Source: a virus
Strand: one strand, 5' to 3'
Virus record (IMG/VR): IMGVR_UViG_3300037200_000150
Span: 1-21,683 of that record
Length of the DNA: 21,683 nucleotides
How positions within the stretch are numbered: position 1 is the stretch's first letter; each line of letters opens with the position of its first letter. The notes below the pieces were generated by a model. It was not told the DNA's origin. It did no database searches and saw nothing but the letters and a program-made list of their open reading frames with translations. The position numbers and the translations under genes were made by a program. Shown piece by piece: positions 987 through 11,004 of the stretch.

Positions 987-1000
987 TAGCCCGTGGGCTA
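987..1000 (+). promoter_or_regulatory. hairpin enclosing the GTG start of the connector gene
   Basis: TAGCCC-GT-GGGCTA is a perfect dyad centred on the GTG start codon at 993. No Shine-Dalgarno sequence is visible in front of this start. In mRNA the stem (five to six pairs) would hide the start codon, so translation of this gene may depend on ribosomes arriving from the preceding gene. That role is inference. Confidence 0.4.
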
Positions 1001-1505
1001 CCCGAACCCGCCAAACCCGCCGATAGGCGCCGTCACCCCGGCCGATCTTATCTCGAAATTCGTCGAGTTTTCGGTGGCCCAGGGCGGTATCGAGTTCTTG
1101 CCCAAGTACCCCGCGTCGCAGATACAGTTTTACCTCGATTGGGCTTATCTCAGCCTCAACCCACGCCGATGGGGGCCACTCTTACCGATGGGCGTGCAGC
1201 TTTTCGCGGCGCATTATTGCGTGCTTGAAGCGCAGGCCCAGGATCAGGTGAACCAAGGCGGCGAGCCGGGTATGGCGACGGGGTTGATATCGAGCACTTC
1301 CGCGGGGGGCGTTTCGGTATCGTTCGATACGAGCACGCCGGCCAATCCCGAAGATGGCGAGCTCAATCTTACCGTTTACGGTACGCGTTTCGCGCGGCTC
1401 AAGCGCCAGCTCGGCGCGGGCAGCTTGACGGTGACCGGTGGAGATTGTTACCCCGCGGGTACGCCGGCCGGCGGCTACTACGCGCCGGGGTGGCCGTGGT
1501 TGTAA
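993..1505 (+). CDS. DUF4054-like head-tail connector protein
   Basis: A 170-residue protein. The pattern is that of the DUF4054 connector family: an N-terminal helix segment (LISKFVEFS), YPASQIQFYLDWAYLSLNPRRWG, then an AAHYCVLEAQAQ helix, a GLISSTSAGGVSVSFD strand region and a conserved YGTRFARLKRQ helix. Such proteins form a ring below the portal. GTG 993 is the only reasonable start because an in-frame TAG lies at 987-989. No clear ribosome site precedes it and the start sits in a small hairpin. It is flanked by the two His-rich paralogues and followed by other neck genes, which fits the role. Confidence 0.8.
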   Translation: MGYPNPPNPPIGAVTPADLISKFVEFSVAQGGIEFLPKYPASQIQFYLDWAYLSLNPRRWGPLLPMGVQLFAAHYCVLEAQAQDQVNQGGEPGMATGLISSTSAGGVSVSFDTSTPANPEDGELNLTVYGTRFARLKRQLGAGSLTVTGGDCYPAGTPAGGYYAPGWPWL

Positions 1506-2388: not shown

Positions 2389-2422
2389 AGACGGTCCCGC
2401 GTCGCTACGCGCCGTAGGACCG

Positions 2423-2554
2423 ATGCCCGTCCACGTAAAAGATACTTCGGCTTCCGTAATCGCCACGCTGCGCGCCCTAAGCCGGCGCCGCGTTTTGGTG
2501 GGCGTGCCGGCCTCGAATAACCACCGAGACCGGCCTTATTACGGCCCAGCCTAA
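2423..2554 (+). pseudogene. duplicated 5' fragment of the tail-completion gene
   Basis: ATG 2423 opens a 43-codon frame. Its first 34 codons (MPVHVKDTSASV to ASNNHR) match the start of the tail-completion gene whose main body lies at 2964-3488. It then runs into foreign sequence and stops at 2552-2554. An AGGA at 2416-2419 lies only three bases before the ATG. This copy holds the normal-looking ATG, while the downstream copy has ATC in its place. The fragment is therefore read as the left duplicate made when the 2524-2897 segment came in. Whether a short peptide is made is unknown. Confidence 0.7.
2429..2523 (+). repeat. 95-bp perfect direct repeat, left copy
   Basis: These 95 bases are identical to 2898-2992 (offset 469 bp). 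They encode VHVKDTSASV onward to ASNNH of the tail-completion gene. Recombination between the two copies would remove 469 bp, including the reverse-strand gene, and rebuild an intact gene starting at ATG 2423. Confidence 0.97.
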
Positions 2555-2564
2555 CGTACCGTAA
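2529..2564 (+). pseudogene. orphan C-terminal scrap of a stopper-like gene homologue
   Basis: In the frame starting at 2529 the sequence reads T-GLITAQPNVP-stop, the same ten final residues as the stopper-like protein ending at 2388. The underlying codons differ at eight of ten third positions with no amino-acid change. It is therefore not a fresh copy of the local gene but the end of a diverged relative's gene, brought in with the reverse-strand gene. There is no start codon, so it is a remnant. Confidence 0.85.
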
Positions 2565-2822
2565 TTATTTTTTCCAAGGGTAAGCCTTAACGTAGCCGTT
2601 TCCGGTGGGATGGTTAATCGTCGCATCCCATCCTAGGGCTTCGAACTTCTTCTCGGCGGCCTGACGCTCGGCGATGTTTTTGTATGGCAGGCTTAGCATC
2701 GGCAAGCCTTCATTACCGTGACAAGCGAGACCTTTTGGCGCATTAACTCCGTTCTGTTTAGCATAAGCGACCGCTTCCGCGTAGGTGCCGGCGAAATCGA
2801 CCATAATGGTACCGCTAGTCAT
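2565..2822 (-). CDS. 85-aa reverse-strand cargo gene (moron-like), unknown function
   Basis: This is the only convincing minus-strand gene in the window. ATG is at 2822-2820, with GGAGG (minus-strand reading of 2831-2835) eight bases ahead and a plausible sigma70-type promoter at 2852-2880. The protein is 85 residues. It begins MTSGTIMVDFAG, then a helix-like EAVAYAKQNGV, a short GLACHGNEGLPML stretch, a charged AERQAAEKKFEALGWD helix and a YVKAYPWKK end. This suggests a small alpha/beta fold with one Cys-His pair (ACHGNEG). No family is recognised. It is less GC-rich than its neighbours, opposes late transcription and is bracketed by a 95-bp duplication. These are marks of a moron, a gene expressed independently of the late operon, often in lysogens. 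Confidence 0.75.
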   Translation of the reverse strand: MTSGTIMVDFAGTYAEAVAYAKQNGVNAPKGLACHGNEGLPMLSLPYKNIAERQAAEKKFEALGWDATINHPTGNGYVKAYPWKK

Positions 2823-2851
2823 GTGGGTGTCCTCCGTTTGCTAGAAATATT

Positions 2852-2880
2852 CATATAAGCCCGCGTCTACGAAAAGTAAA
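2852..2880 (-). promoter_or_regulatory. candidate sigma70-type promoter of the reverse-strand gene
   Basis: Read on the minus strand, TTTACT (2880-2875) and TATATG (2857-2852) are separated by 17 bases and stand in an AT-rich patch unlike the surroundings. Each hexamer matches the consensus at four of six positions. The ribosome site follows at 2835-2831 and the start codon at 2822. Spacing is ideal but hexamer matches are only moderate. Confidence 0.5.
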
Positions 2881-2897
2881 TAGGTATCGTCATCCCG

Positions 2898-2992
2898 GTC
2901 CACGTAAAAGATACTTCGGCTTCCGTAATCGCCACGCTGCGCGCCCTAAGCCGGCGCCGCGTTTTGGTGGGCGTGCCGGCCTCGAATAACCA
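2898..2992 (+). repeat. 95-bp perfect direct repeat, right copy
   Basis: Identical to 2429-2523. Just outside, the left copy starts ATG-CCC while this copy starts ATC-CCG, so the start codon is lost here. On the right the copies part at CAC-CGA versus CAT-CGC, still both His-Arg. Confidence 0.97.
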
Positions 2993-4937: not shown

Positions 4938-7079
4938 ATGAACAGCGGCCTGCCGGTTTCCCTTTTCGTCGACGTCGAGGTCAACCTTAGCGCCATCCAG
5001 GCGCAGGCACCCGCCGTCAACACGAACCTCGTTATCGGCACGTCGAACGTGATTCCGATTATCGAGCGGGAGCGAGAATACTATACCATCGCTGAAGTGG
5101 CCGCGGATTTTGGCACGAGCGCGCCCGAATACCTCGCCGCGTTGCTGTGGTTCGGACAAAATCCGCAGCCGACCAATCTGTTCATCGGCCGATGGGCGCA
5201 GGCGGCGACCGCGGGGCAGCTTATCGGTGGCGGCGTGACCGCGGCCAACCTGCTCATTTCGGCGTGGACCCCGATCACTTCAGGCTCGTTTACGATCTTC
5301 GTGGATGGTATCCCGTACACGTTGACGGGTATGAATTTCAGCGCCGTGACGAACCTTAACGGCGTGGCGAGCGTGGTACAAACCGCGCTGCAGGCCGCCA
5401 CGAGTGCGACGCAGACCGTCGTTTACAATTCGATTTACAACGATTTTATCGTCACCGATTCCGCCACGGGTACGAGCTCGGTCATCGGATTCGCCACGAG
5501 CCCCACCGCGGTGGGTTACGCGGCGTTTTCGGGTCAACCGACCGCGAACGACACGCTGACGATCGACGGCACCGCGGTTACCTTCGTTTCGTCGGGCGCG
5601 AGCGGCAATCAGGTCAACATCGGTCTCAGCCTCGCGGCGACGCTGACCGCGCTGCTAACCTTCCTTAACTCTTCGACCGACGCCGGCCTCGCGCTCAATA
5701 ACTATTACGTCGTCGGCTCGACGCTCTATATCGTGGACAAGGTGGCCGGCGCCTCGGGCAACGGTCATACGTTGGTGAAGTCTTCGACCGCTATCACGCT
5801 GTCCGGTGCGACGCTTACGGGCGGCGGCTGGTACGCAGGCGGCTACGCGAACTTCGCCGGTCAGCCCACCGCGGCGGATACGATCACCGTCAACGGGGTT
5901 TCGATCGAGTTCGTCGCCTCGGGCGCCACGGGCAACCAGGTCAACATCGGCGGTTTGACCGCGGTTACGATCCAGAACCTGTTGACGTTCCTGCAGGGCT
6001 CTACCAACGCGTTGCTCACCGTCATGGGCTACGCGGCGAGCGGCGTGCGCCTGTACTTCCGGGCGAAGGTCGGCGGTGTCGGCGGCAACGTCTATACGCT
6101 GACCGTATCATCGACCAACGTCACGGTCTCCGGCGGTACGCTCACGGGCGGCACGGCGACCGATATTTCCGGAATGCTTTCGTTGGCAGCCGCGAGCAGC
6201 GGGTGTTTTCAGTCGCCCGGTATCGCGGCCGAAAGCGCGGTCACCGCGGTTACGACGTTTGATAACATGTTCTCGACCCAATGGTACGGGCTCGAGGTCT
6301 TGGGCGCGATGGACAGCGACCACGAGGCGATCGCGGCGTACATCGAGGCGGCGGCCCCGGCGCATTACTACGGCGTTACGACCCAGGAAGCGGGCGTGCT
6401 CGTGGCGACGGACACGAGCGATATCGCCTACGTGCTCAACGAGCTGGGCTACAACCATACGGCGGTGCAATATTCGAGTACGTCGCCGTACGCGATCGTT
6501 TCGTACCTCGCCCGCATCCTCACCACGCAGTGGCTTGGTTCGAATACGACGATCACGCTGTTTGGCAAGCAAGAACCGGGCGTCGTCGCGGAAAACATCA
6601 GCGTTACGCAATATGAATCTTGCATTGCGAAAAAGTGCAATGTCTACGCGACGATCAACGTCGGTTCGCCGATCATCGCCGAGGGAACGAGCGCGTCCGG
6701 ACAATTCACGGATACCGTTATCGGGGCCGACTGGATGTCAGGCGAACTTCAGCTCGCCGGCTACGACGCGATTACCGGAACGCCCACCAAGATACCGCAA
6801 ACGGACGCGGGCGACGGCGTCCTCGTCGCGGCGTATACCGGGGCGTGTCAGCTCGGCGTCACCAACGGCTACGCGGCGCCGGGCCAGTGGAATAGCGCGG
6901 GCTTTGGGGCGCTGCAACAGGGGCAGAACCTGCCGGCCGGCTATTACGTTTACATACCGTTGATCGCGACGCAATCGGAAGCGGTACGGCAAACACGCGC
7001 CGCGCCGGTGTGTCAAATTGCGATGAAATGCGCGGGCGCGATCCAAAGCTCCGACGTCGTCTTCAACGTCAACCAATGA
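4938..7079 (+). CDS. tail sheath protein, DUF3383-like, with tandem inserted domains
   Basis: A 713-residue protein with GGAG at 4925-4928. Residues 1-190 show the DUF3383 sheath pattern: SLFVDVEVNLSAI, LVIGTS, a YYTIAEVAADFG segment followed by LLWFGQNPQPTNLFIGRW, then a GSFTIFVDGIPY domain. The C-terminal half (about 425-713) continues with GLEVLGAMDSDHEAIAAYIE, an LNELGYNHTAVQY region and a closing helix (YYVYIPLIATQSEA). Residues 193-298 and 302-406 are two copies of a beta-rich domain (FSGQPTANDTLTIDGTAVTF versus FAGQPTAADTITVNGVSIEF; ASGNQVNI versus ATGNQVNI). They probably decorate the outside of the sheath. This makes the protein longer than I would expect for the family. It contracts around the tube to drive injection. 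Confidence 0.85.
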   Translation: MNSGLPVSLFVDVEVNLSAIQAQAPAVNTNLVIGTSNVIPIIEREREYYTIAEVAADFGTSAPEYLAALLWFGQNPQPTNLFIGRWAQAATAGQLIGGGVTAANLLISAWTPITSGSFTIFVDGIPYTLTGMNFSAVTNLNGVASVVQTALQAATSATQTVVYNSIYNDFIVTDSATGTSSVIGFATSPTAVGYAAFSGQPTANDTLTIDGTAVTFVSSGASGNQVNIGLSLAATLTALLTFLNSSTDAGLALNNYYVVGSTLYIVDKVAGASGNGHTLVKSSTAITLSGATLTGGGWYAGGYANFAGQPTAADTITVNGVSIEFVASGATGNQVNIGGLTAVTIQNLLTFLQGSTNALLTVMGYAASGVRLYFRAKVGGVGGNVYTLTVSSTNVTVSGGTLTGGTATDISGMLSLAAASSGCFQSPGIAAESAVTAVTTFDNMFSTQWYGLEVLGAMDSDHEAIAAYIEAAAPAHYYGVTTQEAGVLVATDTSDIAYVLNELGYNHTAVQYSSTSPYAIVSYLARILTTQWLGSNTTITLFGKQEPGVVAENISVTQYESCIAKKCNVYATINVGSPIIAEGTSASGQFTDTVIGADWMSGELQLAGYDAITGTPTKIPQTDAGDGVLVAAYTGACQLGVTNGYAAPGQWNSAGFGALQQGQNLPAGYYVYIPLIATQSEAVRQTRAAPVCQIAMKCAGAIQSSDVVFNVNQ
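5514..6155 (+). repeat. tandem domain duplication inside the sheath gene
   Basis: Residues 193-298 (5514-5831) and 302-406 (5841-6155) of the sheath protein are homologous units of about 105 residues. Both start GYA-x-F-x-GQPTA-x-DT, share SGA(S/T)GNQVNIG and LLTFL, and end S(S)T-x-x-x-SG-x-TLTGG. DNA identity is lower than protein similarity, so the duplication is not recent. Confidence 0.85.
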
Positions 7080-7129: not shown

Positions 7130-7576
7130 ATGTCCGGTACCTATTCCCTCCTAGACGTCAATTTTTCGATCGTCGGACCGAACATATCGACCTCGGCGAC
7201 CGGCGTCGCCGAAGAGGGTTATACGCCGGCCTTCGAGGAAGACTCGGACGTGATGACCCAGGGCGTCGGGGGTGTTATGCACTCGCTGACCGTTGCGAAG
7301 CGGGGCGCCGTCGAGCTGCACATTCTCAAGACCAGCCCGATGAACGCGCAGTTGAACTACGCCTACATTCAGGATCGGGCGAACGGCTCCCAGCAGTGGG
7401 GCCAAAACGTTATTACGATCACCAACCCGGTATCCGGCGACAACTGGAACTGTAAGTCTTGCGCGTTTCGCCGGCACCCTTCGACGCCGTACCAAGTGCG
7501 CGGTAGCGTCCACGTGTGGACGTTTAATTCGGGTGAGATGGACCCGATCTTGGGGAACCTTACGCCAAATACCTGA
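7130..7576 (+). CDS. tail tube protein, DUF3277-like
   Basis: A 148-residue protein with AAGGA at 7116-7120. It follows the sheath gene, as tube genes usually do, and has the DUF3277 layout: SLLDVNFSIVGPN, an acidic AFEEDSDVMTQGVGGVMHS loop, then LTVAKRGAVELHILKTSPMNAQLNY, a TITNPVSGDNWNCKSCAF stretch and a final VRGSVHVWTFNSGEMD strand. It would polymerise into the inner tube through which DNA passes. Its TGA stop is the first three bases of a large inverted repeat. Confidence 0.85.
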   Translation: MSGTYSLLDVNFSIVGPNISTSATGVAEEGYTPAFEEDSDVMTQGVGGVMHSLTVAKRGAVELHILKTSPMNAQLNYAYIQDRANGSQQWGQNVITITNPVSGDNWNCKSCAFRRHPSTPYQVRGSVHVWTFNSGEMDPILGNLTPNT

Positions 7577-7660
7577 CAACGCGCGCAGCGGGTTGTCATC
7601 CTTTTGCGTTTATATTCACAGAAATTAGTAGTAGCTGACAACCCGCTGCGCGCGTTGTCA
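7574..7660 (+). repeat. 25-bp perfect inverted repeat with 37-nt loop
   Basis: Bases 7574-7598 are the exact reverse complement of 7636-7660. Each arm is itself a dyad, TGACAAC-N11-GTTGTCA, so the heptamer occurs four times. The loop (7599-7635) is AT-richer than the flanks. The left arm begins at the tube stop codon, and the right arm ends just before the GGAG ribosome site (7663-7666) of the next gene. There is no T-run after the stem, so it is not a standard terminator. It may be an mRNA stabiliser or processing site after the abundant tube message, a read-through brake, or paired operator sites. Confidence 0.95.
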
Positions 7661-7673
7661 TAGGAGCAGACAG

Positions 7674-8033
7674 ATGTTTACCGTGAAACTGTTCGATCGC
7701 GAACGCCTCCAGATTATCGAGGCGGATTCCGTAACGGTCGTCGATGAGACGCCGTATCTGAGACGACTGACTTGCGCTCGCGGCGGCTCTACGCAAGCGT
7801 ACCTGGTCGGCGTCCTTACCCGTACGGCGTCCCCCGCCGACGGGCTCGTCGTGTACGACCGCGCCATCGTTGAGAACGGCGAGGGCCGTACGACCGAGGT
7901 CATTCGTACCCGGTCGCTTCCCCCCCTTAGCGAACGCTACTATCCCCCTCCCCCCTCCGAAAATCCCGATAGTGCTTACGTCGGTTCTGATCCCGCTACG
8001 CTCGAAGATCGCGTACCGGGAGCATCTCGATGA
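7674..8033 (+). CDS. hypothetical phage protein with Pro-rich C-terminus
   Basis: A 119-residue protein from ATG 7674, with GGAG at 7663-7666 right after the inverted repeat. The N-terminal two thirds look like a small beta fold (MFTVKLFDRERLQIIEAD, VVDETPYLRRLTC, AYLVGVL, GLVVYDRAIVENGEG). The tail is Pro/Ser-rich (SLPPLSERYYPPPPSEN) and is encoded by C-runs at 7920-7926, 7944-7948 and 7950-7955. Its stop overlaps the next ATG by four bases (ATGA), so it is translationally coupled to the chaperone gene. I recognise no family. Confidence 0.65.
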   Translation: MFTVKLFDRERLQIIEADSVTVVDETPYLRRLTCARGGSTQAYLVGVLTRTASPADGLVVYDRAIVENGEGRTTEVIRTRSLPPLSERYYPPPPSENPDSAYVGSDPATLEDRVPGASR

Positions 8034-8658: not shown

Positions 8659-11004
8659 ATGGCCGATTCTGAGGTCGTTCAAGAATTTCTGGTTTCGCTC
8701 GGGTTCAAGCTGGACGATAGCCAGCGGGCGCGTTTTGATGCTGCCATGGGTTCGAACCGCGCGTCCGCGGCGGCGCTCGACGCGCAGCTCGCGGCCGTAG
8801 GTAAGCAGCTAGGTCTCTTGGGGGATCAGCTGCTAAAGGTTTCGGGGCATCCGACCCGCGAGGCCGAAAACGCGGCCGATCGGCTTGCCAAGCGTCACGA
8901 CGCGTTACAACGCGGGGTAAAACAGCTCGGATTGACCGCGGTAACCGCGACGACGGCGTTCGTCGCGGGCTTCGCCGAGATGGCGAAGGCGTACGAACAA
9001 CTTTATTACGTGAGCCAGCGCACCGGGGTCTCGGCCCAGGGGCTCGCTGCCGGCAACTTCGGCGGTTCGCAGATCGGCCTTAACTCCGGCGACATCCAGG
9101 CGGCCACCGAGGCAATCGCGACCGCGGCGCGTAACCCAGGCATCAAGAACTTGATCGAGAGCTGGGGCGTCGCCTCAAATGACCTGCGCGGCATCGTGCA
9201 TCACCTCGCCGCGCTGCCGCCCTACCTGCAGGACGCTTACGCGGGCATGCTAGGTATTTCGGGTACGACACTGCGAAACCTGATAAACAATCAGGACCAA
9301 TACGATAAGTCCGTGCGGGAGTTCAACGCGCGGATCGCGGCGTCCGGGGTCGACTACAAGAAATTTATTGACGATACGGTTGACATTACGCGTTCGCTCG
9401 GCACCGTATGGTCGCAAGTCGAGACGATCGGGGTACAGAGTTTCGAGGAGGTCTACCCCGCGGCGCATAAGCTGCTGGGCGTGACCGAGGGCTTGTTAGA
9501 TACCACGATTAAATGGAACGCCGCCCATCCCGGTTTTGCTGCCGCGGAGGGATACGCCGTCGCCACGGTAGGGGCCGTCGGTCTATTGGGGGTCCTCGGC
9601 AAGATATCGGGACTGCCGCTTTTGCGGTTCGGGGTTTTAGGCGCCCTTATGTACGGGACGTACGAGGGCGGCAAGGGATTCGTCGAAAACATGACCCCGG
9701 AGGGCGCGGCGGCGCGTCGAAAGCAAGAGGATAAATATGGGATACGCTCGCCGATCCCGGACCCGGCCGAGGTTTTAGGGTGGCTGTTTAACGTTGGTCG
9801 TGGTAATACGTGGCAATCGCACGTTCCCGGCACGGTGGACTGGTTTAAGGGAATTAGTGGGCGGCGCCCCGGCTACGGCACCGAAGGCGATCAAGGCCCG
9901 ATAGGCGACGTGGGGCCGACGCTAGGTCCGACCAGTTCAGACGCGGTGGATTCGTGGCTGCGCGGCAATTCGACGTATCACCCGGTGGTGCAGGTTCTCG
10001 GGCTCGAGGCCATGTTGAGTGGTATAGGCGCGAGTGGTGGCTTTGGTGTCGCGGGTGGCGGAGTCGGCGTGGATCGCTCCGGCGGTCCGCAATCCAGCGT
10101 GGGTGGTCGCTCGGGAGAAACGGGCGGAGGTGGATTTACTTCTGGCACAGTGGGTGGCGGCGGCTGGGAAGCTGCTAGTGAGATCATACAGCAGTACGAG
10201 AGCAGCGGTGGGAAGAATATTCCGAATGGGCAGGGGTCGTCTGCCTTCGGGCCTTGGCAGATTTTGCAGGGCACTTGGAATGATATCGCCCCGAGGGCCG
10301 GGGTGGACCTAGGTCAGTATCCTACGGCGCGCTCAGCTCCCATAACGATGCAGGAGCAGGTAGCCCGAAAGTTGTGGGAGACTAGGGGGTTTCAGCCCTG
10401 GACCATAGGCAATCCGGCCCTAGCACGTGCCCTCGCAGGTGGCGCCTTAGCGTCCTACGCTACGGGTAACGCCGTACCGGGTGGCGCGTCCCCGGTAACG
10501 GGCGTGAACCCAGAGTTCGCACACCGCATCGAGGATATGGTGGCTCACATGCCACCGGAGCTTAGGAAGAAATTTCAGATAATCAGCGGGTTCCGCGACG
10601 CCGCGCGTCAGCGTCAGGTGAACCCTGGGGTTACCAACTCTCATCACACTCAAGGAATGGCGGTGGACACGACCTGGGACCCCGCGGTGCGGGCCTGGAT
10701 TCGGGAGCATGGGTCGGAGTACGGCGTCGGGTATCCCCTGCTCGGAAACCCTAAGGAGGGAAACCATCTGGAACCTCTCGAGGGTGGCAAGCGGATTATG
10801 GATATGCAGGGGTGGCGTAGGACGCACCTAGGCGGTGATAATTCGACCGCCTCGTCATCTTCTGGTGACAAACATGTCGAGCTTAACCACCCGGTCACGG
10901 TGCATATTCACGGCGACGCCGCGGATGCTTCGCAGCGGGTGTTATCGGCGCTTAACGACCATTCCGGTCGCTTCCTGCGCAACGCCGAAGCGACGATCAC
11001 CTAA
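8659..11004 (+). CDS. tape measure protein with lytic transglycosylase and M15-type peptidase domains
   Basis: A 781-residue protein. Residues about 15-95 are charged and helical (coiled-coil like). Residues about 294-335 are hydrophobic (VATVGAVGLLGVLGKISGL), as in tape measures that reach the inner membrane. A Gly-rich linker (about 450-500) leads to a lysozyme-like transglycosylase domain with QQYESSGG (likely catalytic E514) and SSAFGPWQI. A Zn-peptidase-like domain follows, with SGFRD, H663-TQG-MAV-D670 and E700-GN-H703, the H...D...ExxH pattern of VanY/M15 carboxypeptidases. The last 60 residues are a linker and helix. It sets tail length and opens peptidoglycan during injection. The enzyme part (about 10130-10860) uses AGG, CCT, TCT and GGG codons more than the rest, suggesting a swapped-in module. 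Confidence 0.85.
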   Translation: MADSEVVQEFLVSLGFKLDDSQRARFDAAMGSNRASAAALDAQLAAVGKQLGLLGDQLLKVSGHPTREAENAADRLAKRHDALQRGVKQLGLTAVTATTAFVAGFAEMAKAYEQLYYVSQRTGVSAQGLAAGNFGGSQIGLNSGDIQAATEAIATAARNPGIKNLIESWGVASNDLRGIVHHLAALPPYLQDAYAGMLGISGTTLRNLINNQDQYDKSVREFNARIAASGVDYKKFIDDTVDITRSLGTVWSQVETIGVQSFEEVYPAAHKLLGVTEGLLDTTIKWNAAHPGFAAAEGYAVATVGAVGLLGVLGKISGLPLLRFGVLGALMYGTYEGGKGFVENMTPEGAAARRKQEDKYGIRSPIPDPAEVLGWLFNVGRGNTWQSHVPGTVDWFKGISGRRPGYGTEGDQGPIGDVGPTLGPTSSDAVDSWLRGNSTYHPVVQVLGLEAMLSGIGASGGFGVAGGGVGVDRSGGPQSSVGGRSGETGGGGFTSGTVGGGGWEAASEIIQQYESSGGKNIPNGQGSSAFGPWQILQGTWNDIAPRAGVDLGQYPTARSAPITMQEQVARKLWETRGFQPWTIGNPALARALAGGALASYATGNAVPGGASPVTGVNPEFAHRIEDMVAHMPPELRKKFQIISGFRDAARQRQVNPGVTNSHHTQGMAVDTTWDPAVRAWIREHGSEYGVGYPLLGNPKEGNHLEPLEGGKRIMDMQGWRRTHLGGDNSTASSSSGDKHVELNHPVTVHIHGDAADASQRVLSALNDHSGRFLRNAEATIT

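Follow-up and report, generated by a model that had tools for sequence, protein, structure and literature searches.

How does a phage genome come to carry one neck gene in two pieces, the first cut short, the second lacking its usual start, with an open reading frame on the opposite strand between them? The question is raised by the linear IMG/VR record IMGVR_UViG_3300037200_000150, a metagenomic phage contig that was analysed over its whole length of 21,683 bp (the window). Matches to PHROG and Pfam profiles, together with the gene order, show that the contig encodes the neck and tail of a phage with a contractile tail (Table 1). The duplicated gene, a tail-completion/Neck1 gene, is called c below, the head gene upstream of it h, and the reverse-strand reading frame x85.

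Table 1. Coordinates of the neck and tail features in the window, in order of position
Feature	Position	Strand	Remarks
DUF4054 adaptor	993-1505		Profile match
Head gene h, 129 aa	1999-2388	+	phrog_939 'head protein', PHROG E = 8e-18; intact, ends GLITAQPNVP-stop
Spacer, 34 bp	2389-2422	+	Ribosome-binding-site-like TAGGA ahead of ATG 2423 (sequence)
Left tail-completion/Neck1 copy, truncated	2423-2554	+	ATG kept; out-of-frame fusion, 43 aa
Left repeat copy, 95 bp	2429-2523	+	Identical to right copy
h remnant, 11 codons including stop	2532-2564	+	GLITAQPNVP-stop; second, diverged h gene
x85, 85-aa ORF	2565-2822	-	Moron-like; directly after h remnant
x85 leader, 69 bp	2823-2891	.	A+T-rich (43.5% G+C); GGAGGA ribosome-binding site; possible promoter
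Right tail-completion/Neck1 copy, full length, 198 codons	2892-3488	+	ATC where relatives have ATG
Right repeat copy, 95 bp	2898-2992	+	Identical to left copy
Neck terminator PF23961	3707-4384		Profile match
DUF3383 sheath	4938-7079		Profile match
Tube gene	7130-7576		Gene order and similarity to relatives

Several features elsewhere in the tail region can be described briefly. The sheath gene contains inserted, internally repeated stretches at 5490-6160, including 41-nt repeats that are 83% identical and 327 bp apart. These stretches make up the excess length of the sheath protein, which has 713 residues compared to about 490-500 in several relatives. The interval that separates the tube gene from the following gene contains a perfect 25-nt inverted repeat at 7574-7660, with its arms 37 nt apart. 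The arms are themselves partly palindromic (TGACAAC...GTTGTCA), the RNA fold of 7565-7675 has a predicted energy of -55.6 kcal/mol (z = -8.8), and a search of Rfam with the inverted repeat gave no match. The tape-measure-like gene (8659-11004) seems to include a peptidase M15/VanY-like stretch at about 10480-10800 (SGFRDAARQ...SHHTQGMAVD), recognized by eye only.

The 95-bp tracts are identical and in direct orientation with a distance of 469 bp from start to start, which confirms the first-pass annotation. Judged from the comparison of the two tracts, such an identity cannot be chance. The wider copies (2423-2529 and 2892-2998) are 96% identical over 107 nt. The left copy starts ATG CCC GTC and follows the register of c for 36 codons, after which it reads the end codons of h in another frame; it had been described as cut at 43 codons, and an open reading frame of this extent is found. 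The right copy is the sole full gene body of c in the contig and matches phrog_222 over most of the protein (PHROG E = 3.4e-24). It starts ATC CCG GTC, and its ATC aligns to the conserved start methionine of the relatives, in agreement with the earlier claim that ATC stands where ATG belongs. Its reading frame contains a stop codon at 2877, and starting at TTG 2964, the next of the usual start codons, would cost 24 residues. Joining the flanks at the repeat in silico produces a 198-aa gene with an ATG, just as had been expected for a recombination that deletes 469 bp. The proposal that an insertion or duplication has broken the completion gene is supported by these results.

The upstream gene had been called a stopper. 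This label is not retained, because the gene matches the 'head protein' family phrog_939, and its matches to head-tail joining and head completion proteins in the PDB are weak. Likewise, the reported "remnant of another stopper gene" is a real remnant, corresponding to the end of h, but the name does not hold. The remnant encodes the same ten residues as positions 2356-2388, with eight of the ten sense codons changed, in the third base every time. The codons at the edges of the repeat (ATG CCC against ATC CCG, and CAC CGA GAC against CAT CGC GAA) also differ at third positions only, and the probability of finding this edge similarity by chance is 0.006. Altogether, 13 of the 15 homologous codons in the flanks are different, compared to none of the 31 in the core (Fisher p = 1e-9). 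A simple recent self-duplication would have left the copies equally similar throughout, and it was rejected because it cannot explain this contrast. The pattern suggests that two diverged versions of the locus meet here and that the core was made identical by a separate recent exchange. The third-position changes would thus need two diverged parents plus that exchange. The identical tract inside diverged codings is the one truly odd feature of the locus and is not fully explained.

Relatives were collected from IMG/VR by profile searches, which gave 80 loci with c, 80 with the sheath and seven with h, in addition to named phages such as the Burkholderia phages Magia and BgManors32. Searches of IMG/VR with the single proteins c, h and x85 had no matches. 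The neck module of these DUF3383-sheath myoviruses (phrog_222, phrog_939) shares with the contig the adaptor, completion/Neck1 and head proteins as well as the terminator, sheath and tube genes. Unlike in that module, the order of the completion and head genes is reversed in the contig and the pair is partly duplicated. In 156 related loci that have both genes (a few contigs being counted twice), h follows c, and the two genes usually abut. Among the loci compared, h precedes c only in the contig and in locus L169, where single intact copies of h and c, the latter with an ATG, are separated by a spacer of about 230 bp (L169:107-1312). No relative was found that repeats the two-copy arrangement and has a usable start on its second copy of c: L169, the sole relative with the same order, has no duplication. 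Single copies exist in either order. In the tree of h, L169 groups with three loci of the usual order (L066, L047 and L015), apart from the contig, with a support of 0.998. Its position on a different branch indicates that the order swap probably arose more than once, and the swaps in the contig and L169 are apparently independent. The suggestion that the swapped order is itself a product of duplication is weakened by the same locus. No duplicated neck block was found in the homologous loci outside the contig; in L168, c is split over frames without being duplicated.

Small extra genes between the neck genes are common in the relatives. Of 158 loci, 20 have a gap of more than 200 bp between c and h, and 25 of 150 have one between the adaptor and c. 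The contig also has two paralogous small genes among its head genes (661-972 and 1591-1971), which carry an N-terminal IHV(H/Y)(L/V)H motif. Starts resembling HIHVHLHD also open small inserted genes in L027 and L071, and this phage group may have a family of small accessory genes with a common start of this type.

The presence of a reverse-strand reading frame of 85 amino acids between the repeats is confirmed. It lies between h and c, two genes that adjoin, in the opposite order, in the majority of relatives, with a median gap of 6 bp. Its G+C content is 52% and that of its leader 43.5%, compared to 62% for the contig, and the GGAGGA sits a few bases ahead of its ATG. The length of the reading frame is by itself weak evidence for a gene. 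When the insert was shuffled 2000 times, a frame of 85 aa arose in 186 cases, but one accompanied by a GGAGG ribosome-binding site arose in only two. No relatives of x85 were found in searches of IMG/VR, phage, plasmid, GTDB or PDB sequences, and there was no match in Pfam, PHROG, NCBIfam or PADLOC. The family profile searches revealed neither a nuclease domain nor a recombinase match. AlphaFold gave a poor model (pLDDT 60), and the Foldseek matches of this low-confidence model to LAGLIDADG proteins were dismissed as noise (E of about 0.5 or higher).

The first-pass annotation saw in this gene the capture of a moron. The reverse strand, low G+C content, A+T-rich leader and strong ribosome-binding site agree with such an origin, whereas the region was found to contain no sigma-70 consensus promoter and no terminator, although signals that depart from the consensus could escape such a search. 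The gene is therefore called moron-like only, a description that appears to fit in part. Like the morons of tailed phages (Hendrix/Juhala type), x85 is small, lies on the opposite strand between structural genes, differs in base composition from its surroundings, and has its own ribosome-binding site and an A+T-rich leader. Unlike these genes, it lacks a consensus promoter and terminator, and its insertion is accompanied by a partial duplication and a broken neighbouring structural gene. The locus also resembles insertions of free-standing homing endonucleases with recoded flanks, in which a small gene is situated between structural genes and the end of the adjoining gene is changed synonymously. 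However, x85 matches no nuclease family.

A single non-homologous join between two related phages, which left a partial tandem duplication around the moron-like gene, is given an even chance of being the correct explanation. One parent, A, would have carried h, the 34-bp spacer and c, and the other, diverged parent, B, would have carried h, x85 and c, with x85 as a small moron-like gene between the two. If A was joined, at about codon 36 of its c, with the final 11 codons of the h gene of B, at about 2524-2531, the order h, c', h', x85, c would result in one step. The sequence would then be of A type upstream of about 2528 and of B type beyond about 2531, at least as far as the beginning of c. 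Two direct copies with a non-homologous join between them (h...c' / h'...c) are indeed present, and the join is supported both by the 95-bp identity and by the natural gene edges, which lie on one side in the left copy and on the other in the right. Both junctions from h to c, one through the spacer and the other through x85, suggest that the parents themselves had the h-c order. A three-unit tandem array derived from the usual c-h order was also considered, and was set aside as less economical than this two-unit (h c) model.

We infer that A and B were two distinct phages, that a real molecule contains the join and that the core is identical through recent exchange, which could have been an earlier exchange between A and B or a subsequent conversion of one copy by the other. 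Rad52-like enzymes let phages recombine in spite of divergence, and pieces of genes are often swapped in this way (PMC3945230), so that both the setting of the join and a subsequent equalization of the core by phage recombinases are plausible by analogy. As in other products of illegitimate recombination in mosaic phage genomes, truncated pieces of adjacent genes are fused out of frame, full-length copies flank them, and the direct repeats can be resolved by deletion. Unlike in those products, the core is 100% identical while the flanks and the tail of h are heavily changed at third positions. The two-phage join does not account for everything. An identical core is not implied by a single join and demands a second event, and ATC as the only start of c in B is unexplained, because a living B phage should have had a good start. 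Neither parent turned up among the searchable IMG/VR records and GTDB genomes. A degenerate pattern designed on VGVPASNNH, which is encoded at the 3' end of the 95-bp core, had no match in IMG/VR and one irrelevant match, in a Clostridia MAG.

The arrangement might instead be a technical chimera or strain mixture, as the first-pass annotation had warned, in which co-occurring relatives with and without x85 were joined during amplification, library preparation or assembly, so that it existed in no virion. This is a serious rival, although less likely than the two-phage join. The contig is a linear fragment that opens with 41 bp repeated exactly at 184-224, suggesting that the assembly broke in a repeat; two diverged codings stand side by side; and an essential neck gene is left without a normal start. 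However, the join at 2524-2531 has no long parental overlap that a k-mer assembler could use, which makes it probable that a physical molecule, either a recombinant or a library chimera, carried it. The contig also contains no N, and the overall and third-position G+C contents of the structural genes are alike on both sides. An old tandem duplication of h and c within one lineage, followed by divergence under selection, deletion of the middle of one pair and recent gene conversion of the core, is unlikely. The changes confined to third positions in the h tail and edge codons would indicate that both copies were under selection, and the swapped order in the contig and in L169 on its separate branch would fit recurrent duplication and loss. 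Nevertheless, two working copies of both genes would have had to be kept for a long time, whereas no relative has two, and conversion between short, strongly diverged copies is expected to be inefficient.

It is very improbable that x85 and its flanks are a mobile cassette that spreads among the phages of this group by homologous recombination through its own gene-end arms, where the recoded h tail would guard x85 from re-targeting and the contig would represent an aberrant, half-homologous insertion. The least credible proposal, one that can hardly be entertained, is the regulated switch of the first-pass annotation, in which the completion gene would be silenced and reactivated by the 469-bp segment. 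A deletion across the repeat would restore the full 198-aa gene, but recombination between direct repeats deletes and does not invert, so that the segment would be lost. No inverted repeat flanks it, x85 matches no recombinase or invertase, and a second state was seen nowhere.

In the contig form, c could be made only weakly. An ATC start is weak in E. coli, with 0.1-0.3% of the activity of AUG in one reporter context, and reaches several per cent in clostridia (PMC9680021), so that little of the c protein would be expected, unless the host is different in this respect. A crossover between the 95-bp copies would remove x85 and give back a normal c gene. As it can be resolved in this way, the contig form is expected to be unstable or rare, and it is probably a transient or minority form. 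The locus combines known kinds of event, the gain of a moron-like gene and a duplication by illegitimate recombination, and is unusual in the identical tract between diverged codings.

Should the arrangement prove to be a chimera, it would be a caution for the reading of duplications in metagenomic phage contigs. If it is real, it would show that a phage whose completion gene is crippled can last long enough to be sampled. It would then illustrate how the neck module of contractile-tailed phages, strongly conserved as it is, acquires small extra genes and order swaps, the route being non-homologous joining between relatives, partial duplication and then resolution.
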